This document shows positions 10,925 through 23,987 of a stretch of DNA of 64,000 nucleotides, in pieces (position 1 is the first letter of the stretch; every line of letters starts with the position of its first letter). Origin of the DNA: a virus; the IMG/VR virus record IMGVR_UViG_3300025141_000046, positions 1-64,000 of that record. One strand, given 5' to 3'. The position numbers were made by a program, and so were the translations under genes. The notes beneath the pieces were generated by a model. The model was not told the origin of the DNA. It was given only the letters and a program-made list of their open reading frames with translations, and searched no databases.

Positions 10925-11416
10925 TTAGTACTGCAAGATGCAGTTATCATATCTTAGAGTCAAATCAATAGTTACGGGCGTGTTGTCCGTATCGTATGTA
11001 AGAGTCTGAAAGTTTACTGAGTTGATCATGGTACCTTTCATGTCCCAGTGCTCTACAACAGTTCCTATCGGATCTAGAAGTTTAATTTGAATATCTCTCT
11101 TGTAAAAGTCAGCATATCCTGCTCTTCCAGACACTGATTCGTAATGAGTTCTGATCCACTCCATAACCTGCTGGGCACCAGATGGTGCTATCGGGTCATA
11201 AAGGGTGATGCTCATTGTCTGAAATTGCATCCTTCCACTCAAGTATCTGTATGAGTTAATAAAAGGAATCGGAAGTTCCTGAAACTGCATTTGCGGTCTA
11301 GCAGCAGTTTTCATTAGGAATGAATCAATACCCTCTATGGCGAAAACCCACCGGAACTGACGCTTGGGTTCGAACTTGTTAGGTAGCATTTCGCTAACTG
11401 AAAGTGTTTCTGCCAT
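10925..11416 (-). CDS. Tail tube protein, gp19-like
   Basis: A 163-residue protein, the same length as T4 gp19. It has the tail-tube pattern: an N-terminal FRWVFAIEGIDSFLMKTAARP strand region, then SGRMQFQTMSITLYDPIAPS, then a C-terminal beta part with TIDLTLRYDNCILQY. It starts at ATG with GGAG ten bases upstream. Tube subunits stack as hexameric rings around the tape measure to form the rigid inner tube that the contracting sheath drives into the host. It lies directly after two sheath genes, as in T4 (18 then 19), and is followed by a strong terminator. Only one tube gene is seen for two sheath genes. Confidence 0.88.
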   Translation of the reverse strand: MAETLSVSEMLPNKFEPKRQFRWVFAIEGIDSFLMKTAARPQMQFQELPIPFINSYRYLSGRMQFQTMSITLYDPIAPSGAQQVMEWIRTHYESVSGRAGYADFYKRDIQIKLLDPIGTVVEHWDMKGTMINSVNFQTLTYDTDNTPVTIDLTLRYDNCILQY

Positions 11417-11465: not shown

Positions 11466-14400
11466 TTAAACACTGTCAAAATTACCTGCGTTAGCAACAG
11501 TAAAATCAAGTGCAATAAACTCTGCTGTCCGAGTGGGCTGCAGATAAATCTTTCCTCTAATTGTGTTATTTTCAATGTCCGCTTGTGTGGTTGTGGTTGT
11601 ATCAATAATAACCTTGTACCTATCAACTCCGCCATTGTCCTGAATTGTCTGCATGATTGGCTTAACTAGTGCATTAAATCTATCAAGCGTTTCCTGCCTG
11701 TTGGGCTCAAAGAGTAGTGAATTAGCAATATTCTTAACTTTTCGTCTGATATCAATCAATAGTCTTCTAACATTGATTCTATCTAGTGCAGATGCATTTG
11801 CCATCAGCGTTTTTTGACCCCAGACAACCGGGTCCTGTCCGACAAACTCAACAAGAGGATTAATTCTCTCTTCATACAGTTTATCTAAGTCATCCCTTTC
11901 AAGGGGAAGTGTGCATGCACTAATGCTAGCGTCTAGCCTTGCTCTTGAAAAACCTGCAGGTGCGTTAAAAGGTTGACCGTAGTAATCATTTCTTGACATT
12001 GCTCCCATGACTGCGACGCTTGGAGGAGCAACTTGCTCTCCTGACCCGTAGCCTATATCAATTACGACATCTGGATAATAAGCAGCTGCAAAAGAGCTAT
12101 CGAGACCCCTAGCAGCAAATCCTGCAGCAGTGTATGTTACACTTGGAATTATTACAGAGCCATCAGCTGCCACTGACCCAGTCATGACAACATTATTCTG
12201 GCTTCTCTGCTCAATATCCATGATATACAAAGCATCAAATCTATTTTCGACTGTACTCATAGCATAGTCAGTAACACTTGAGTGTCTAATTCCCGGGATT
12301 GTTAGCAATTTTACGTCAACGTCTGCTTTGACGCCCATGAGATCAAGTGCCTTTCTATATGTTGCAACTGTTGGTCCAGATACACCGCCTTGATTAATAG
12401 AGTCATCCATCTCTCTCTTGCAAGCTGTCGATGTAAAATCAGCCTTGTCGATGTCGAAAATGTCTGTACCGTCGAATCCCCCTTGCATATAGACTGAATA
12501 TTTTGCGAATGTTCTGTTTCCTGACGTCCTAAGATCATTCACATTCAATGCTCTCATTCCAAAACCTGGTGTAATTGAACCTTTTCGAATGTATGATGCG
12601 CTATGCCAGAAATCTGGATCTGCAATGTCGCCACTAGACCCTGTCTTGATTCTGATTCTCTCTAGCGTGAATATATTATTGTTGAATGCGTCGCAATCTA
12701 AAACCGTACCATTAACTGCTGCAGTGCCTGGATTATCTCCAACAGAGAAGTTGAATGCTCCGGGAGAGAAAGATGGGAAGAACTTTGTTTTTGTCACCAG
12801 CGAAAGGTCTTGACCGCCGCCATTTAGGCTTCGAAGCTTAGTTGATCCATAGGGATCTGTAATTAGAACATTTGCAACTCTCATTTCAAATTGAACACCC
12901 CAAAATAAGTTTGCGTTAGCTAGAATATCTGAAGAATCCCCGGGCGTGCCACGTTTGACATCGTCTCTATACCTTATTGGCGGTTCAGTGATCTCCTTAT
13001 ACGGGGTGGTGGGTACCAGGGCTGCGCCTGACTCTAGGTCTGCGAGAGGTCCGCTACCAGATGTTACAAGGTGATCCGGTCCTCTGAATCCCATGGGGAG
13101 TGCATCGTCAGGAACATTTCCCAACTCTAGCGCTTTTGGAATTTCAACTCTAATGAGTGAGGAGTTTCCAGGAAAGTTTCCTTCAACAACAAGCTTCTGG
13201 CTTCCAGCTGCCTGGTCAAAATCGAAGAATACTTGCTGGTCACCAATAACTCTTCCAATATATTTGTCACTGCCCAGATCTAAATTACACCCAAGGTGAC
13301 CCTCGAGAACTGCTGGAGAATCATCTGTATCATCAAATTCTCTTACAAGAACATCAAAAGTTCCAAACTTATCAGTTGCTGTTGCATTAGCAGGTGAAAT
13401 ATTTACAATAGAGATCTTATACTTTGATGACGGTATTGCACCGTCACCGCGAGCTTTGATTCTAAATAAGTTGTACTTAGTACCTCCAAAATCTTGAGAT
13501 ATAAAGTGAGGTGTTTTTGCTGCAGTAAATCTTTCCTGGAATGATTCGTAGTTAGGAGATACCCCAGCTGTATATGTGTCTCTTGCTTGAGAACCCGTTG
13601 TGATAAATCCGACATCCTCGAGCCTCGAATCTCCGGTGCCCTCTACATCAGCATGGAGAACAACACCGCTACCCGTAATTATAGCAAACCCTGGCGCTAG
13701 ATCATACCAGCTATATAGACAATGACCTTTTTTCTGAAGGAGTGTGGGGTCCTTATTGAGCTTCGTTGGAAAATACATCCCTGAATTTGAATCAAATGAT
13801 GCTGTAATTACATTACTGTTTCCACCATTTGGAATGTGACCGTTAAGAAGCAGTACGAACTCACCATCATGGACCTTGACAGATCCGCTCATCCCACCTT
13901 TCACTGATGCTGCACCCGGGATGGCCTCGTCTGTAACACTGGGTGCATTGGAATTTACTGCATGTGAACATGACAACTGAGGAATGACACCAGAAGGTGC
14001 CATCAATACACCTCTTAAAATAGGGGCAGAGCGGTTTTCTCCAACTATCTGAATATTAGCATCTGAAAATACAGTACTGCCAGCTGACTCTGACATGAAG
14101 CATCCCATGAAATATGTTCTACCTGGTGGAGCGTACGGGTGGGCCAAGCCCACTGCACTGGGATTTGCACCCACAATGCCATCATTTTGAACTAAGTTTG
14201 ATCCAACAGCAAATCCAGCCCGAGTTACCTTTCCAGTTGATGTGCTGCGCTGGTTTCCATCACCAACACCCAATACTCTAAGGTATGTTAGTGCTGTCGC
14301 ATTTCTTAAAAATGTATAAACAGCCATGGGACCGTAGATATCAGGCGGTGTTCTCCCTAGTGTTGCTGCATCAAATTGTGGTGCACCAAAGACGGCTGTA

Positions 14401-14561
14401 TAATCACTAAACGTCCCAAGTGTAATTGGGACAAATGCTGGGCCGTCCGTTGCGACACCTATCACCCCTGCAGGGACACCCATTGGGCCTGTTAGCGTAG
14501 GCTGTGATAGATCCGTCTCGGTGGAAAAAACTCCAGCGCTTTTGTAAACTTTTTCTGACAT
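11466..14561 (-). CDS. Tail sheath protein, paralogue B (gp18-like, enlarged)
   Basis: A 1031-residue protein with an ATG start and GGAG upstream. The N-terminus (KSAGVFSTETDLSQ, then GVPAGVIGVATDGPAFVP) and the C-terminus (a helical region rich in Arg/Asn, then IENNTIRGKIYLQPTRTAEF) are the conserved ends of contractile sheath proteins. T4 gp18 is 659 aa, so about 370 residues are extra, mostly in a beta-rich middle likely to face outward. The next upstream gene is a second full-length sheath of similar build, so the two arose by duplication. It probably polymerises around the tube and contracts on infection. Whether both are used in one tail is unknown. Confidence 0.85.
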   Translation of the reverse strand: MSEKVYKSAGVFSTETDLSQPTLTGPMGVPAGVIGVATDGPAFVPITLGTFSDYTAVFGAPQFDAATLGRTPPDIYGPMAVYTFLRNATALTYLRVLGVGDGNQRSTSTGKVTRAGFAVGSNLVQNDGIVGANPSAVGLAHPYAPPGRTYFMGCFMSESAGSTVFSDANIQIVGENRSAPILRGVLMAPSGVIPQLSCSHAVNSNAPSVTDEAIPGAASVKGGMSGSVKVHDGEFVLLLNGHIPNGGNSNVITASFDSNSGMYFPTKLNKDPTLLQKKGHCLYSWYDLAPGFAIITGSGVVLHADVEGTGDSRLEDVGFITTGSQARDTYTAGVSPNYESFQERFTAAKTPHFISQDFGGTKYNLFRIKARGDGAIPSSKYKISIVNISPANATATDKFGTFDVLVREFDDTDDSPAVLEGHLGCNLDLGSDKYIGRVIGDQQVFFDFDQAAGSQKLVVEGNFPGNSSLIRVEIPKALELGNVPDDALPMGFRGPDHLVTSGSGPLADLESGAALVPTTPYKEITEPPIRYRDDVKRGTPGDSSDILANANLFWGVQFEMRVANVLITDPYGSTKLRSLNGGGQDLSLVTKTKFFPSFSPGAFNFSVGDNPGTAAVNGTVLDCDAFNNNIFTLERIRIKTGSSGDIADPDFWHSASYIRKGSITPGFGMRALNVNDLRTSGNRTFAKYSVYMQGGFDGTDIFDIDKADFTSTACKREMDDSINQGGVSGPTVATYRKALDLMGVKADVDVKLLTIPGIRHSSVTDYAMSTVENRFDALYIMDIEQRSQNNVVMTGSVAADGSVIIPSVTYTAAGFAARGLDSSFAAAYYPDVVIDIGYGSGEQVAPPSVAVMGAMSRNDYYGQPFNAPAGFSRARLDASISACTLPLERDDLDKLYEERINPLVEFVGQDPVVWGQKTLMANASALDRINVRRLLIDIRRKVKNIANSLLFEPNRQETLDRFNALVKPIMQTIQDNGGVDRYKVIIDTTTTTQADIENNTIRGKIYLQPTRTAEFIALDFTVANAGNFDSV

Positions 14562-14595
14562 CTAAATGAACTCCATTCTATAACTTAATTATCGT

Positions 14596-17500
14596 CTAAA
14601 CGAAATCTACACCTGCATTTGTGATGATAAAGTCAATTGCTATGAATTCAACAGCACGTGTTGGAACTATGACAATACGACCATTGAGAATATTGTTCTC
14701 AATATCAAGATCTGTATTGTTTGAAGAATCCATGACAATTCTAAATTGATCAATACCTTGTTGTGTCTGGATACTTGCCAGCAGCGGTGTAACCTCGGCG
14801 ACAAATCTTGCTCTTGTTGCTGGTGTATTTTGCTCAAAGACTAACTTCGTTGCCACATCACCAACAACTCTCTTGACCTCAAGCAACATCCTTCTAACAT
14901 TAACTCTATCTAGAGAGCTCCTTAGAGCCTGCAGCGTCTTCTGGCCAAAGATAACGTATCCTGCTCCTGGGAATGATGCGATTGGATTTATTCTATTTTC
15001 GTACAGGTTGTCTCTATTTTCCTGGTTAAGTCTAACATTCGTGTTTGTAACGAAACCTAATGATCCTCTATTGAATCCAGCAGGTGCGAACCACGGATAC
15101 GAAATACTATCTGTATATGCAAGTGCTCCAATAACTGCAACTGACGATGGAACGTCAACTGGCCTGTTATTAATATCATCAAATATTCTAACATCTGGGA
15201 AGTATGCACCGGCATAGTTGTTATCTATTCCTCGTCCTGCGAAGACCGATGCAGTTTTATCGACGCTAGGTCTATTGATGCTATCTCTAAACAATCTTGC
15301 CTGGTCCGCGTCGTAAGAAGGAACGTCAACTATGTAAAATCCCTTACCATAGCTTCCCAGTCTTAGCATTACATAATCTGTCAATGAAGAATCTCTAATT
15401 CCCGGTATGCAGACGATATTCACACGAGATGACACCTCAGATGTCAATATTCTCGCTGACGCTCTGTATGACTGAACTATTGCACTTTTGGCGCCGGCGC
15501 CAAAGTCATTTACTGTCGTATTTAAGCCAATATCCAGTGTTGCCCCGGATGCATATCCGCCTGTATCTGATGAAGATGACTTATCGTTCATCTTCACCAT
15601 GTTTGAATCAAGGATATTAACTCCGTCAAAGCCTCCGTAAATCATATTTGTGAACTTAGTGTAATCAACAAATTTGTTAAAGTACAGTGATGATGTAAGT
15701 GATGCTAGACTAGCAAATGTAAGTCTGTTATTGTACTCTGATCCATCTCTAATTGTATACAGTGCCGGATCCGGAGATCCATCTCTTATGTATGCTGCAT
15801 CAATAATATGATCAGCTGCTGATCCAGTTATCTGTGAAGTTACAGATCCAACAACATCACCCGTATATGATCCTGTTCCGTTATAGAATGCTACTCTTGC
15901 TAGTGTGAACTTGTTATTATTGAATTTATCAGCACCTGAGCCTGTTGTAAAGACGTCTAGCTTTTGTATTCCTAAAAGCTTAGCATACGAAGTTATAAGA
16001 GGGTTAGTAGTTGATCCCAGGTTTGATCTATAGATAGAATCTGTCCTTGTTGAGCTTGAGACTGCAAGGTGCTCAAATTTAACACCCCAGTACAGACTAG
16101 CATCGACAAGCTCTTCATCACCGCTCTGGCCGGTAAAATCTGGAGTTTTATCAAGAATTCCCCTTGTAACTTTAAATCTTAGCGGAACAGGGGGCACGAT
16201 TGATCCTGTCATAGATTTCGCGCCTCTACTTTGCCACAACAATGTGGCGGCTGCGACTGAGCCCGCGCCAGTACAGGCTGACATTCTTCTAGTATTTTGC
16301 GAAGGTACCGATACACCCTTTATTGCAGTACCGTCATCTGTTAGACAATCACTTGTCTTAATCGATGGTAACCCTCTGAATCCGAATGGAAGAGCTGTGA
16401 TAGGAACCTGACCGGCTTCTAGATCGCTGGAAGCAACAACTCTGACCCTGCTAGATTTATTGGGATACCTGCCAGTTACTACAACTCTCTTTTCACTGTC
16501 AATTTGTGCATCGAAGTTGTAAAATGCTTTCATATCACCGATCTTCTTTGCAACGTAGTCAGCACTTTTTGGATTTAAAGTACACCCTGTATATCTCTCA
16601 ATAACTGATATGCTTCTATCACTGTCTGAAAAATCTCGCACCTCAACAGTAAATGTACCATATGGGTCTTGTTCAGGGCTCAGAGGCATTCTGATATCCC
16701 TGATGGATATCTTGAACGATGTATTTGCGACTGCGCCATCAGAAATTGTCTCGATTCTAAACAAGTCGTATTCTTTATCACCGTATGGTTGTGAGATGAA
16801 GAATGTAGAGGTTGGTGTTTGAAATCTTGTATCAAATCTTCCGAATGCATTGTTGAAAGATACAGATGCTCCTAAGCCGCTAGTTGATGAACCTGCTGCT
16901 GAACCTGACATTAGACAGATTGATCCCGTAACCATGGCCCAGGACCTGGCCACAGATCCCCTATCTACCTCTGCCACCTCATTTTCAACTGCAAAGTCTC
17001 CGTAAAGCAAGTGCTGCTCTTTCTGAAAAAGTTGTGGATCAGTATTTAATATCTTTCCTATGTAAGCGTCATTAGCAGGATCTAGTGATGCCGTATATAT
17101 TCTAACTCCAGCAAAGCCATCTGCAGCTGCAAAACTTGATCCCGCTGTGGATGAAAGAACTAGCTTAAATAGACCTGCAGAGGAAGGCTTTGCAACATCA
17201 TTATTTGTTGCAAGTGTCTCTCCATAAGTTGCAGAAGCATATGTAAGCACTTGAAATCTTGATCCAGTAGGAGTCATAAGCACGCCTCTGACAAGATTTA
17301 CAGTTTGATCAGTAAGGGGCATTGAAGCATTGTCTGTAAAAATTGGATATCCCACAGCTTCAGCTCCAGATACATAGTGTCTTGCAGAGATAAACTGTAC
17401 GCAACCTAATTTTCTGCCTTTGTCATATGCTGGACCTTCTGTCCCTGCCGCTCCGTCGGCCCCTTGAATTACAAAACCTGCACTCTTGACAATTCCCGCA

Positions 17501-17805
17501 CCTTCAGTGAGAGTGATGTCTGTAGACGTTATGTTTGCTCCGGCACCTAAAACTCTGACATACGTCAGCGCTGATCGGTGCTTTAAAAACTCATTAACTG
17601 CATAAGGTCCAAACATGTCAGGATCTAGAGATCCAAACTTATTTTCAAACTCTAAAAATGATCCTACAGTTACCGGAACAAATGCTGGTCCCATTCTGGC
17701 AGTTCCTGCAACTCCAGCAGGTACTCCCGAGACCGACGTTTTTGACTGAGATAGATCTATCTCCCTCTCAAAAAACCCGGGTGATTTAAATGTCTGTTCA
17801 GCCAT
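14596..17805 (-). CDS. Tail sheath protein, paralogue A (gp18-like, enlarged)
   Basis: A 1069-residue protein with an ATG start preceded by CAGGAG. It shares with the 1031-aa neighbour the N-terminal sheath motif (GVPAGVAGTARMGPAFVPVT) and the C-terminal pattern IENNILNGRIVIVPTRAVEF. It also shares large parts of the middle, for example YDLFRIETISDGA here against YNLFRIKARGDGA there, and LPFGFRG against LPMGFRG. The similarity runs through the insertion as well, so the enlargement predates the duplication. The gene follows the gp15-like terminator gene. Contractile sheath function is well supported; specialisation between the two copies is open. Confidence 0.87.
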   Translation of the reverse strand: MAEQTFKSPGFFEREIDLSQSKTSVSGVPAGVAGTARMGPAFVPVTVGSFLEFENKFGSLDPDMFGPYAVNEFLKHRSALTYVRVLGAGANITSTDITLTEGAGIVKSAGFVIQGADGAAGTEGPAYDKGRKLGCVQFISARHYVSGAEAVGYPIFTDNASMPLTDQTVNLVRGVLMTPTGSRFQVLTYASATYGETLATNNDVAKPSSAGLFKLVLSSTAGSSFAAADGFAGVRIYTASLDPANDAYIGKILNTDPQLFQKEQHLLYGDFAVENEVAEVDRGSVARSWAMVTGSICLMSGSAAGSSTSGLGASVSFNNAFGRFDTRFQTPTSTFFISQPYGDKEYDLFRIETISDGAVANTSFKISIRDIRMPLSPEQDPYGTFTVEVRDFSDSDRSISVIERYTGCTLNPKSADYVAKKIGDMKAFYNFDAQIDSEKRVVVTGRYPNKSSRVRVVASSDLEAGQVPITALPFGFRGLPSIKTSDCLTDDGTAIKGVSVPSQNTRRMSACTGAGSVAAATLLWQSRGAKSMTGSIVPPVPLRFKVTRGILDKTPDFTGQSGDEELVDASLYWGVKFEHLAVSSSTRTDSIYRSNLGSTTNPLITSYAKLLGIQKLDVFTTGSGADKFNNNKFTLARVAFYNGTGSYTGDVVGSVTSQITGSAADHIIDAAYIRDGSPDPALYTIRDGSEYNNRLTFASLASLTSSLYFNKFVDYTKFTNMIYGGFDGVNILDSNMVKMNDKSSSSDTGGYASGATLDIGLNTTVNDFGAGAKSAIVQSYRASARILTSEVSSRVNIVCIPGIRDSSLTDYVMLRLGSYGKGFYIVDVPSYDADQARLFRDSINRPSVDKTASVFAGRGIDNNYAGAYFPDVRIFDDINNRPVDVPSSVAVIGALAYTDSISYPWFAPAGFNRGSLGFVTNTNVRLNQENRDNLYENRINPIASFPGAGYVIFGQKTLQALRSSLDRVNVRRMLLEVKRVVGDVATKLVFEQNTPATRARFVAEVTPLLASIQTQQGIDQFRIVMDSSNNTDLDIENNILNGRIVIVPTRAVEFIAIDFIITNAGVDFV

Positions 17806-17866: not shown

Positions 17867-19069
17867 CTATTCAGATGTAGGTGAATCTAACGTTGTTTCT
17901 AATTCTTTTGAAATTCGTGAACTAGCTACGGTCTCACCTGCCCTTTCGTTCCTTATTATGATCTTAGATACCTTAATCGTATCAGTATTAGTAAAGGGGT
18001 TTGTAATTGTCTCAACGACTTTGGCGGAATCCTGCCCTCTTTTTAATTTTTCCATTCCCTGGGTCTCAATCTCAGATAGCGTAAACTTATTTTGATCCAC
18101 AACATCATCAGGATTCTTATCATCTGTAAAAACAAATCCGCTTGTTTGATTATATCCAAACTCAATTTGTGTAGCAGACTGATATTTTCTAAATGGTGAC
18201 GGGAGACCGTCTTTTTTTGATGAAAATAGATATCCTGGTACATCAATAGTAAAATTGTACTTTATAATTCTTTCATCTTTGGAAAAATCACTAAAATTAT
18301 CAGATGTAGATAGTGGTGACTTAATAAATGCAACGTATTCCATTCCCGACCTAGTTATCATTTGAAATCCTGTATCCTGGCCCGAAAATCTTGTTAGCAT
18401 GATCTCTATCATCTGGTTCATATTTTGAACATACTGCGTCCAAAATACAACCTCGTAAGAAATCATCATAAAAGTAGGATATGGTGCTGTGATAATTTCA
18501 AAAATATTATCTGTTAGGCTATTATCAAGAGTTGCGACTTGCGAATCAGATAGAAGAGATAGATTTTTTCCATTTCTTCTAGTTGTTAACGTACCAGGTT
18601 TTGCAACATTTCCTGGAAAAATATCTTTCTTGTCAAAGTTCTTTCTACTTGAAACGTTTTTCTGACTTTTTATTCCACCCCTGTTGATAATATTTTGATA
18701 ATTTCTGTCCTTGGGAGAGAGCCTCTTTTTAACAACATATAGCGGTTGATCTCTAAAAGCTATGGGTGTTCCGTACCCGCCCTGCCCAGGAGAAAGATCT
18801 ATGCTTTTTCGGTATATCGCTATTACGGGCAATATAATTGCATTATTTCTGTCTCTTATTGGAGAATTTCTCCTAGTCAGGGCGAATCTTTCACCGGTTG
18901 AGAAAACAACGGGAACTTTTGTTGACTGATCGTCTATCTTAACCTGGAGAGGTAATGTTTTATCGAATAAATCAAAAATGGCCCTATCAATATCCTCTAT
19001 TCCAGATGGCGGTAAGTCAAAATCTTCAGCTTCTGGCAAGTTATTTCTATCATCAAATACGTTAGACAA
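17867..19069 (-). CDS. Tail terminator / sheath-stabiliser-like protein (gp3/gp15-like)
   Basis: A 400-residue protein starting with TTG at 19069 just after GAGGTG. An early region has KVPVVFSTGERFALTRR and IILPVIAIYRKS. A middle region reads YPTFMMISYEVVFWTQYVQN with MNQMIEIMLTRF. These fit T4-like tail-completion proteins that cap the tube and sheath and dock to the neck; T4 gp15 is 272 aa. It lies after gp13- and gp14-like genes and before the sheaths, which is the expected neck-to-tail position. The C-terminal 60 residues are charged and repetitive. gp3 and gp15 cannot be told apart from sequence alone here. Confidence 0.6.
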   Translation of the reverse strand: MSNVFDDRNNLPEAEDFDLPPSGIEDIDRAIFDLFDKTLPLQVKIDDQSTKVPVVFSTGERFALTRRNSPIRDRNNAIILPVIAIYRKSIDLSPGQGGYGTPIAFRDQPLYVVKKRLSPKDRNYQNIINRGGIKSQKNVSSRKNFDKKDIFPGNVAKPGTLTTRRNGKNLSLLSDSQVATLDNSLTDNIFEIITAPYPTFMMISYEVVFWTQYVQNMNQMIEIMLTRFSGQDTGFQMITRSGMEYVAFIKSPLSTSDNFSDFSKDERIIKYNFTIDVPGYLFSSKKDGLPSPFRKYQSATQIEFGYNQTSGFVFTDDKNPDDVVDQNKFTLSEIETQGMEKLKRGQDSAKVVETITNPFTNTDTIKVSKIIIRNERAGETVASSRISKELETTLDSPTSE

Positions 19070-19077
19070 ATTTCACC

Positions 19078-19740
19078 TCAATCCTCCCCGTAGAAAGTGG
19101 ATCCCGCTGGGCCCCCTGCCTTCTCTGTTACACCCTTGGGCCCAGTCAATGGTTTATCTAGGACCCCATCTTTCTGAAGGTCTCTGACGTCCCCTGTTAC
19201 ACCCTCCTGATTGTGTGAATATCCACGCTGCTGATAATAATTTTCCTGGACAGCATCGGGATCACTATATCTTTCATCTGTGGGTCCGAATACATGTGTT
19301 TCGAATTGACCTTTTCTTGCCTGCTTGCCTGTTATAGTTATGAACCCCTTGTGCTCAACTTGTCCGTATATTGTATTTGAATCTGGAACTGTAATGATTT
19401 CAAAAAATACAGCACCATAACTAAAAAAATCACCCTCAACGACTTTAATACCTTTATCTATCATATCTCTTTCTTGAACATACGCTTCTATAGTGTAATA
19501 CTCTTCAGTTCCAAACTTATTAGCCCTAATATCTTGAGGCTGGTACTTAACTAGCGCATCTAGCTTAATAGGATTTTCAAAAACTTTTCTTGTTGATTCT
19601 TCATACACATCATGAACATTTGACTTCGTAGTTGAAATAGGGTAGTAGTATATGTGCTGCCCAATAACATCCTTCACCATCTCTTTTGCAAGATCGTTGA
19701 TAAAGTTAATCTCTCTGGGTGAAATGAAAAGTCTACTCAT
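19078..19740 (-). CDS. Neck protein, gp14-like
   Basis: A 220-residue protein with an ATG start. Its first 150 residues follow the gp14 neck pattern: HIYYYPISTTKSNVHDVYEE, then FENPIKLDALVKYQPQDI, then a beta-rich region with a conserved VEGDFFSYGAVFFEI. T4 gp14 is 256 aa and, with gp13, closes the filled head and forms the tail attachment site. The C-terminal 60 residues are Gly/Pro/Gln-rich and probably disordered. It lies four bases after the gp13-like gene and nine bases before the gp15-like gene. Confidence 0.65.
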   Translation of the reverse strand: MSRLFISPREINFINDLAKEMVKDVIGQHIYYYPISTTKSNVHDVYEESTRKVFENPIKLDALVKYQPQDIRANKFGTEEYYTIEAYVQERDMIDKGIKVVEGDFFSYGAVFFEIITVPDSNTIYGQVEHKGFITITGKQARKGQFETHVFGPTDERYSDPDAVQENYYQQRGYSHNQEGVTGDVRDLQKDGVLDKPLTGPKGVTEKAGGPAGSTFYGED

Positions 19741-19744
19741 TAGC

Positions 19745-20932
19745 CTATCCCATCAATATTGCCAAGCCATTGGGCATTGGAATAAATTTAAGTTGTTTAT
19801 TTATGAACTCAGCTCTTGTTGCTGCTAGCTCCATAAGTTTGTCATAAGTCATTGTTTCTAGCATTTCTTTTATATGTGTAACTAAGTCCTTCTGCTCCTC
19901 TCTACCCTGTGTAATGAGATCTTTTCCGTTAAGCTGTAACTCAGCACCCGGTATCGGAACATTTGAAAATTTAGATCTAACTTGCCCAAGAAGCTCTTTT
20001 GACAGTGCTAGTGTAAACTGTCTAATCCACTGCCTGCCAATGCTATTAATATTTGTGTATGGCAAATTACCAAAAGGCAAATCAGAAAGATTAGAAACTC
20101 CTGAAATTGTACCATCGCTGTATGCCGGATTCAATGGATCAGAGTAAAATCTGACCCTTATCCACAATTTTTTAGGTGTATTTGGATCTACAGAGGGTGT
20201 TGGATAGATTCTTAGACTCTGCCCAGATAATTTATATGAGTAATTTGACCTTCTAACTCTGTTAGATAGGTCTAGCTGACCAGCACGAAGTATGTCTTCA
20301 AATACAGGCAGTACGTAAAAGATTGTTTCCGGTGTAAATGATTCAAAGCTAAATTCATTATTTAGGTAGTTAATTGCGCTTGTGGTGTCAAAAAATCTAT
20401 AAGCTGCTTGGGGATTGAAGTGAAATACTTCGACAACTTGCATCTTGCTTCTCTTTGTGTTTAGACTAGATGAAAATATTAAACTTCCGTCTGATGCTGA
20501 GAGAGTATTGTAAATATTGTAATCTTGTGTTCCAGCCTTTAGCTCAATTGATCCCGATACAGTATTATATGAACCTCCGATACCTGCTTCGAATGAGTAT
20601 GGCTCTGCAAATCTACTCAGATAATCGAGATTATCTCTCGGGAACTTACCTTCTGACCCAGACATAGTCCCGTCTGCGCCAGTTATTGGCATTCCAAGAA
20701 AGTTTACTATTTGTGATCTTGCCTGGTATGTGTTTAGTATTGCACTGAACTCAAGTGTGGCTTCTTCAAATGATGCCCATATTTGCTTTTTTGTCAACTC
20801 TACTGATAAAACATCGTCGCCCAGCTTTCTTTTTACAAATGTAACCATTGAATCAGCTTCAGTTTGAAAACTTGATTCTGGGTCATAAAATCCAAACGGT
20901 GTTGGTTTTGCTGTATTTGCGAAATTTGCCAC
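19745..20932 (-). CDS. Head-completion / neck protein, gp13-like
   Basis: A 395-residue protein starting with GTG at 20932, with GAGG about eight bases upstream. The C-terminal half has WIRQFTLALSKELLGQVRSK, then PIPGAELQLNGKDLITQG, then a helix rich in Glu/Lys. This is the pattern I associate with T4-like gp13 neck proteins (T4: 309 aa). The N-terminal part contains a VTFVKRKLGDD helix and a WASFEEATLEFSAIL helix. It lies immediately after a terminator and starts the neck-sheath-tube unit. The longer middle, with SGS-rich loops, is extra compared with T4. Assignment rests on motif recall and on synteny with the gp14-like gene. Confidence 0.6.
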   Translation of the reverse strand: MANFANTAKPTPFGFYDPESSFQTEADSMVTFVKRKLGDDVLSVELTKKQIWASFEEATLEFSAILNTYQARSQIVNFLGMPITGADGTMSGSEGKFPRDNLDYLSRFAEPYSFEAGIGGSYNTVSGSIELKAGTQDYNIYNTLSASDGSLIFSSSLNTKRSKMQVVEVFHFNPQAAYRFFDTTSAINYLNNEFSFESFTPETIFYVLPVFEDILRAGQLDLSNRVRRSNYSYKLSGQSLRIYPTPSVDPNTPKKLWIRVRFYSDPLNPAYSDGTISGVSNLSDLPFGNLPYTNINSIGRQWIRQFTLALSKELLGQVRSKFSNVPIPGAELQLNGKDLITQGREEQKDLVTHIKEMLETMTYDKLMELAATRAEFINKQLKFIPMPNGLAILMG

Positions 20933-21995: not shown

Positions 21996-23987
21996 CTAGA
22001 TTACATCTAGATTCAGAACTGTAACTGTACCGTAGAAGTCAGCGCGAACCATCTTCTTACCGTAGCGAGTCATCACGCCCTTACGGGGTGTGAAGTCCTC
22101 TGGAGCGAAGATAGTAGGAGTGACGATGAGTGGCACGTACGGAGCGTAGACGTAACCAGTCTCAAGGTAGCTACCGCCCTTGTACCCAACAAGAACCTTG
22201 TTGCGTGGGAAGTAGGGATCCTTATAGACCGTGAAACGGTTGCTCAAGCTACCGACTGGAGCTGCACCGAGCTGGAAGGGAGAACCGACCTGACCCTGGC
22301 CATCGAGGCTGTAATTGGGCTTGTACAGGACGGATGCTTCGAAGATCGTTGCTATGTCCGGTGAGCAAACAACAAAGTTTGCTGAACCACGAAGAGTCTT
22401 ACGATGAATCTCATTTGCGACGTCAATGATCGTCTCAACAAGTGTCTCGTACCACTCACGGACAGTACCTGTGAAGGTTGGACCAGAAGCAAGTGTGCTA
22501 GAGAGTGTGACCTCAGCGCCTGTCTTCTTGTTAACAAACCTACCAGGTGAACGTGACCAGTAGTAGTTAGCTCCCTTTGCCTGTGTCAGGAGATCATTAA
22601 GGATCTCACGATCAAGCTCAAGTGCAATCTGCTCAGATAGGATCTGAGTTAGCTCAACCTCAGCGTCAAGGCTGTGGTAAGCGTTCAGGTCCTGTGCGAG
22701 TTCTGGTGACCACCGAGCACGTAACTTACGTGTCTCAGCTGTAACAGCGATTGACTCAATCTTGATATCGATCTCAGGAATGTTGACAGCAGGTGTAGCC
22801 TGGAAGTCTGACTCAAAGGTCGGAATTGTCAGGGTTGACCCGTCGGTGTCTGTATTAAGCGTAGGTGCTTGTACGTAGGAGCCTGAGAAACCACTATATG
22901 TAGCATCAAGCACTGTGCTTGAGATATCAGGTGCATAAGTACCTGAAACAATTGTCAGCAAGGCTGCATTACCCGTGTTACGAGTTACCATAGGATCAGG
23001 AGTGAAAACACGTGCGCCAACATCCCAAGTACCTAGCTGGTTAAGACGTCGAATGTTGACGACCTGTCCACCCTGGATACCATCAGAAGCTGAAAGAACC
23101 TTAACAGAAAGACCACCGCCATTCACTGACATTGGTGATGTTGCTGAAGTGTTTCCACCGCTTATTCCGATTAGAGCTACTTCCTTGACAGCTGTAAAGT
23201 CCATCTGCGCTGGGAATACTGTTGCATCCCAGACTAGTGCCTGGAAAAGACCAAGACCCTGGCGGACACCAGCTGAAGAAGCATTATCTTCAATAAGCGT
23301 AGTTATCTGTGGGTCGAACTGCAGAAGCTTACCATCTGATCCCGTTGCCATGAGATACTGGCCACCCGTAAGTGAGCCTGCACCAGCATATGCACCAGAA
23401 GCAAGAAGCGTGAGCCTATCTGCTGCAACTACACCAAAGCCTGTGTTAACTCTAGTGTAAGCAGTTCCTGCAAGATCATAAGGACCACCAACAGCATCAG
23501 AACCTGATCTGACACCCTTGCCCGTGGGAAGGTTGTAGATTGATTGTCCCTGCGTATATGTCTGCTGAGAAGATGCTCCAGCTGCGCCTGTCACCTGGCT
23601 AGAATCTCCACCAACGTTATCACCGTAGGTGTAATCGAGGTAGAAAAGCAGACCAGAAGGTAGGCTCATTGGCTGAATTGAGACGAGATCATTGGCAACT
23701 AAGCCACCGAATACGCGTCGTACGATTGGGAAAGCGATATTCGTGAAACCACGAAGATCTCCTGAGGATGCGGTCGCGCCAGCACCTCCGCCGATTGTTG
23801 ACTGCTCGCGAAGAAGCTGTGCTGCCTGGTTTTCAAGTAGGCGTGCCATATTCTCGCAACGAGTGTCGTTCAATCCACGAAGAAGGCCAGTACGTGTCCA
23901 CTTCTCAGTTAAAAGAGCTGACTGCTGTCCGACGTCACGTTGACGAATTCCTTCAGTAAGCTGATTTAATGTGAATTTTTTAGACAT
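21996..23987 (-). CDS. Major capsid protein, gp23-like
   Basis: A 663-residue protein with an ATG start and AAGGAA upstream; T4 gp23 is 521 aa. The N-terminus shows the gp23 propeptide pattern (LLTEKWTRTGLLRG, then ARLLENQAAQLLREQ), followed by FPIVRRVFGGLVANDLVSIQ and PMSLPSGLLFYLDYTYG, the HK97-fold entry seen in T4-like capsids. The C-terminal half has LELDREILNDLLTQAKG and the FAPEDFTPRKGVMTRYGKKM segment. A probable prohead-protease cut is after Glu61 (LLRE), close to T4's cut after Glu65. The extra ~140 residues lie mainly between about residues 130 and 400. Arginine is encoded almost only by CGN codons, unlike its neighbours, which suggests very high expression. A strong terminator follows. 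Confidence 0.93.
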   Translation of the reverse strand: MSKKFTLNQLTEGIRQRDVGQQSALLTEKWTRTGLLRGLNDTRCENMARLLENQAAQLLREQSTIGGGAGATASSGDLRGFTNIAFPIVRRVFGGLVANDLVSIQPMSLPSGLLFYLDYTYGDNVGGDSSQVTGAAGASSQQTYTQGQSIYNLPTGKGVRSGSDAVGGPYDLAGTAYTRVNTGFGVVAADRLTLLASGAYAGAGSLTGGQYLMATGSDGKLLQFDPQITTLIEDNASSAGVRQGLGLFQALVWDATVFPAQMDFTAVKEVALIGISGGNTSATSPMSVNGGGLSVKVLSASDGIQGGQVVNIRRLNQLGTWDVGARVFTPDPMVTRNTGNAALLTIVSGTYAPDISSTVLDATYSGFSGSYVQAPTLNTDTDGSTLTIPTFESDFQATPAVNIPEIDIKIESIAVTAETRKLRARWSPELAQDLNAYHSLDAEVELTQILSEQIALELDREILNDLLTQAKGANYYWSRSPGRFVNKKTGAEVTLSSTLASGPTFTGTVREWYETLVETIIDVANEIHRKTLRGSANFVVCSPDIATIFEASVLYKPNYSLDGQGQVGSPFQLGAAPVGSLSNRFTVYKDPYFPRNKVLVGYKGGSYLETGYVYAPYVPLIVTPTIFAPEDFTPRKGVMTRYGKKMVRADFYGTVTVLNLDVI

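Follow-up and report, generated by a model that had tools for sequence, protein, structure and literature searches.

Two diverged, very large tail sheath genes in tandem in a clade of environmental phages

Contractile tail sheaths are usually regarded as polymers of a single protein, and in T4 one gene, encoding the 659 aa gp18, provides it. PaBG and the jumbo phages of the Lupandier group have been described as having a two-component tail sheath (Kurochkina et al., 2018, as cited in PMC7412058), and PaBG gp213 and gp76 are both among the virion protein bands (PMC7412058). Adjacent sheath paralogs in one cluster are also found in AFP (Afp2, Afp3, and Afp4) and PVC (Pvc2, Pvc3, and Pvc4) (PMC9230969). 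In the PDB, Afp2 and Afp3 are both present in the helical sheath entries 6rbn and 6rc8 of AFP, while Afp4 is present just in 6rao and 6rgl. PVC is a counter-case, as only Pvc2 is present in the helical entries 6j0b and 6j0c and the extra paralogs Pvc3 and Pvc4 are confined to the baseplate entry 6j0n. The Halobacterium phages phiH and ChaoS9 (Myohalovirus) have two sheath proteins per genome (PMC9230969).

We analyzed a stretch of 64,000 nucleotides (the window), which is positions 1 to 64,000 of the 93,274-base IMG/VR virus record IMGVR_UViG_3300025141_000046. The original prediction for this DNA had proposed two adjacent, full-length, oversized sheath genes with common N- and C-terminal sheath motifs, followed by a single tube gene, and all of this was borne out. 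The upstream copy, A (1069 aa; 14596..17805, - strand), matches phrog_23 over residues 2-1068 (E 1.3e-58), and the tube-proximal copy, B (1031 aa; 11466..14561, - strand), matches the same family (E 2.3e-52). The two are separated by 34 nt with a TGGAG ribosome-binding-like site (14562..14595, - strand), and this gap was found to be about 20-60 nt in nearly all relatives. An HMM of the N core gave 138 and 110 bits for the pair, N core and C core were present together, and both proteins have the conserved C-terminal domain of the gp18-like contractile tail sheath family. The Pfam match to this domain (PF17482) was above the cut-off for B and just below it for A, for which both Pfam sheath matches were just under the cut-off. 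Identity between A and B is 38% over residues 1-485 (N part) and 558-1065 (C part) of A.

The two genes lie in a block on the - strand with the order terminase, portal, protease, major head protein (21996..23987; phrog_138, E 1e-73), gp13-like head-tail adaptor (19745..20932; phrog_211, E 4e-11), a neck protein in the gp14 position (19078..19740), gp15-like tail sheath stabilizer (17867..19069), A, B, tube, and hub. The neck protein is assigned by gene order only; it has no family match and is a conserved neighbor in relatives. The stabilizer matches PF16724 just below the cut-off (E 6e-5) and has a conserved position before A in relatives. The gp19-like tail tube protein (163 aa; 10925..11416, - strand; phrog_4542, E 9.7e-25) is encoded by a single copy, as no second tube gene was found in the whole record, and it is followed by the baseplate hub protein (T4_baseplate, PF12322; 10017..10820, - strand). 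Homologs of gp13, gp15 (with the match just below cut-off), gp18, gp19, hub, head, portal, protease, and terminase are thus found together, and A and B are two intact tandem sheath genes with a single tube gene in a T4-like virion module. At 38470-63968 of the window, also on the - strand, about 10 mostly large proteins (up to 1371 aa) had no confident or informative PHROG match.

A and B have the N- and C-terminal core in common with T4 gp18, and T4-like sheaths were their best Foldseek and phmmer matches; gp18 differs in being encoded by one gene and in its length. The AlphaFold monomer models were of low confidence (pLDDT 57 for A and 63 for B), and in Foldseek both were nearest to the T4-like sheaths 9mkb, 9f4a, and 9ev2, followed by haloarchaeal and eCIS sheaths. 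The window carries two full sheath paralogs as in the PaBG-type two-component sheath. PaBG is similar in having two such paralogs per genome by duplication (38% identical), but its genes are located far apart (46.8-48.3 kb and 165-167 kb) and encode 528-547 aa. That A and B stem from PaBG's (Lupandier group) own duplication was rejected, since PaBG213 and PaBG76 pair together and outside A+B in the tree. AFP and PVC have small sheaths (354-451 aa) and are not phages, whereas A and B group with phage sheaths. An AFP/PVC-type eCIS, that is a cluster without head genes, was likewise rejected because the window encodes a major head protein, portal, protease, and terminase. The phiH and ChaoS9 sheaths, set beside A and B by description, differ in length and identity (about 430 aa, 52% identical). 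Among the nearest named isolates by sheath sequence, Microcystis phage Mel-JY01 and the Flavobacterium immuto phages share the order sheath-tube-hub with this phage, but their sheath is single and has 812 or 709 aa. From these isolates, Bacteroidota and cyanobacteria would be first candidates for the hosts. No isolate carrying both A and B was found in the phage collection searched.

The history of the pair was assessed by trees of the conserved core, for which 100 N-terminal and 295 C-terminal residues of A were used. A and B formed separate clades in the first tree (99.7/100 and 99.2/99, SH-aLRT/bootstrap), in the second tree (100/98 and 100/100, bootstrap/SH-aLRT), and in the widest tree (A 100/100, B 100/100, A+B 100/99). 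In the widest tree the stem branches of A and B were of similar length, and the sister of A+B, at 99/92, was a group of phages with a single sheath of 811-1086 aa, mostly about 1000 aa. The enlarged middle segment of A, residues 485-774 (15484..16353, - strand), has a homolog in B and was detected in all 20 B proteins tested. At E<1e-3, the 68 single sheaths sampled from smaller-sheath groups gave no match to it. A weak match was found in 15 of 19 other single sheaths, most of which belong to the enlarged sister group (about 955-1086 aa). Because of this sister group and the homology of segment 485-774, the analysis supports that the sheath was enlarged first and duplicated once afterwards, before the A/B clade radiated. 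The proposed order of enlargement before duplication therefore stands for segment 485-774, but not for the middle taken as one block. The stretch 336-478 is old and common to single sheaths, and the additions in A and B flank it on either side.

Viral contigs and genome contigs were scanned with A or with B as the only query, which yielded approximately 200 sheath-gene loci. With such queries, viruses that have just one of the two genes should have turned up if they were common. After removal of near-copies, a second sheath gene followed A in all 70 A copies with readable downstream DNA (400 bases or more), and a sheath gene preceded B in all 64 B copies with readable upstream DNA. Both copies are retained across relatives, as the original prediction had asked of a phylogeny. 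Six loci initially flagged as having A without B were checked against trees and loci; five belonged to single-sheath groups and one was the second copy of L199. The order gp14-gp15-A-B-tube-hub was found in nearly every locus of the A/B clade with enough flank, and a few loci had extra genes around the tube. Three loci with the pair, L145 (305 kb contig), L146 (109 kb contig), and L144, are in MAGs named Methylococcaceae, Halobacteriovorax, and Flavobacteriales, the binning of phage contigs being unreliable.

If one copy were a functionless duplicate, arisen recently or by an assembly artefact, it would be bound to decay. Decay of one copy in relatives was looked for and not seen: the only frame-broken copies, which would fit such redundancy, were B of L075 and A of L179. 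Both, however, come from short contigs, and L075 has a broken tube gene as well. The pair is present in dozens of independent contigs, including contigs of 145-369 kb, its members are diverged to about 38% identity and constrained, and intact co-retention was observed across the clade. We consider redundancy very improbable.

For L011 and L013, the closest usable pair of loci, dN/dS was about 0.07 for each copy with dS near saturation, which indicates that A and B are both under purifying selection. Residues were compared across a set of 34 A, 34 B, and 88 other sheaths, with the enlarged single sheaths brought in as a second step. The changes confined to A are the loss of R819, which all outgroup sheaths have, including that of T4, and a change from V/I to F at position 11. 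Those confined to B are R931 to L or M, R/W998 to L, Y864 to F, and a fixed R at position 978 (all in A numbering). N1029/N1030 was dropped as a B-derived change; the nearest outgroup has T there, so the change could not be polarized. As each copy is without core residues that its partner keeps, the copies appear not to be interchangeable, and each is likely to be specialized and no longer replaceable by the other.

These observations bear on whether A and B could be alternative sheaths, a virion being built with only one of them according to host or conditions. In favor of this, the N and C cores are complete in both, and either protein might therefore assemble by itself. Against this, the genes form one tight cluster with the short gap described above, no T4-type late promoter motif (TATAAATA) was found between them (the count of this motif in the window was not above chance), and no recombinational switch was seen. 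Each copy has also lost core residues kept by its partner, and loss of a single copy, which should be tolerated by such phages, was never seen. We find this explanation improbable, if less so than redundancy. Two sheath states, another outcome that had been considered for this locus, found no evidence in the analysis.

A division of labor by place was also considered, with the shaft built from one copy and the other copy limited to one or a few special rings next to baseplate or neck, which seems to be the role of Pvc3 and Pvc4 alongside Pvc2. The distribution of Pvc3, Pvc4, and Afp4 over the PDB entries speaks for such an arrangement, and so does a divergent sheath-like gene after the tube in L034, L048, L195, and L196, which indicates that extra paralogs occur nearby, perhaps with another role. 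Codon adaptation to the major head protein was, however, equal for A (0.503) and B (0.511; p=0.24, 11 genomes that are not phylogenetically independent), just below that of the tube (0.529) and above those of gp13 (0.459) and gp15 (0.455). This suggests that A and B are both abundant, although codon adaptation reflects copy number only weakly. Such resemblance to a major virion protein is not what one would expect of a ring protein present in few copies. Clear ribosome-binding sites precede both A and B in most relatives, and the similar stem branches of A and B also argue against a ring role for one of them. We regard this arrangement as unlikely, though less so than the two preceding ones, and both copies being in the shaft is the more likely alternative.

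We propose that A and B are probably the subunits of one and the same contractile sheath, a hetero-oligomer that surrounds a tube of a single protein, and they most likely co-assemble as an obligate two-component sheath. This is based on reciprocal monophyly, co-retention, purifying selection, matched codon adaptation, complementary core changes, and the precedents of PaBG and AFP. A sleeve of two proteins is probable because the pair is ancient and both copies were kept in every relative examined. The best explanation is that the pair works like the PaBG and AFP sheaths, yet is neither PaBG's duplication nor an eCIS. A single message would give A and B in similar amounts, and the two would take different places in the shaft, as alternating rings or alternating subunits. 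A would be the constant mechanical partner, B the partner that in relatives usually bears extra domains on its outward face, and contraction would occur by the usual sheath mechanism. Of the three outcomes originally suggested, a mixed sheath is thereby best supported.

Display of two surface domains, the remaining outcome, fits in part, as it is mostly in B that a variable insert is found; the display would be asymmetric, and the B of the window is without a large insert. The length of A is nearly constant across relatives, while that of B ranges from 968 to 1630 aa. The variance lies in one segment, A 88-338 and the B equivalent, with standard deviations of 15 residues for A and 156 for B. 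B was more than 80 aa longer than A in 16 of 40 complete pairs, and the reverse was found in one; the A of L193, with 1302 aa, shows that A also can be enlarged. The inserts of relatives are 120-575 aa long and follow B residue ~171-175. The corresponding site in this phage (approximately 14037..14051, - strand) is empty, the variable segment having 257 residues in B versus 251 in A. The B inserts gave no significant match in Pfam, PDB, or phage sequences. They are probably surface-exposed, because they lie outside the core and by analogy with T4 gp18.

Separate sheath duplications were found in other lineages: PaBG, L129 (recent sister copies), L113/L130/L131, L199, and LR756508. A module of about 112 residues was shared by four B inserts and by the second copy of the independently duplicated L129 sheath, and the second copies of L113 and L130 have an insert of about 226 aa at the same junction as the B inserts. 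It is possible, if rather doubtful, that sheath duplication in these phages repeatedly yields a constant and a carrier subunit, the second, tube-proximal copy taking up variable beta-rich surface domains at one fixed site. The tail would then be a half-density display lattice in which the unloaded partner safeguards contraction. The pattern would have arisen independently at least three times, in the duplications A/B, L129, and L113/L130, and a third sheath-derived protein, strongly divergent and encoded next to the tube, would have been added in one subclade.

What is new here is an ancient pair of very large sheath genes, arranged in tandem and found throughout a clade, the repeated independent duplication of the sheath in related phages, and the tendency of the second copy to take up variable sequence at one site. 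In a clade of environmental phages, some with contigs above 200 kb, two diverged sheath subunits have been maintained from a time before the clade radiated, and the sheath was also duplicated independently in several further phage lineages. The pair makes it possible to test how a two-protein sheath is ordered, how it contracts with asymmetry, and whether one partner is a carrier for surface display.

In L199 (5693-11528), beside the A/B clade, the two copies of a sheath pair are each other's closest kin, which may reflect an independent duplication or gene conversion. The third, strongly divergent sheath-like gene was found between tube and hub in one subclade (L034:10511-13726, L048:17654-21349, L195:8062-11376, L196:3150-6377, and L197:3166-5889). 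In L034 and L048 it was at first taken for a middle-domain-only protein; this was dropped, as profile comparison revealed divergent N and C sheath cores (97-98% probability in hhalign), and on that comparison it is counted as a third sheath paralog. A mirror image of the window's arrangement, with one enlarged sheath gene and two tube-like genes side by side after it, was found in L211 (3292-4534), L224 (9548-10658), and L233 (8497-9784). Small genes inserted near the tube gene in L024 (15094-15339) and L029 (9710-10423) have at their start or end a recurring helical peptide (e.g., KLTIEQLKRMIKEAV), reminiscent of the capsid-targeting peptides of T4-like internal proteins.
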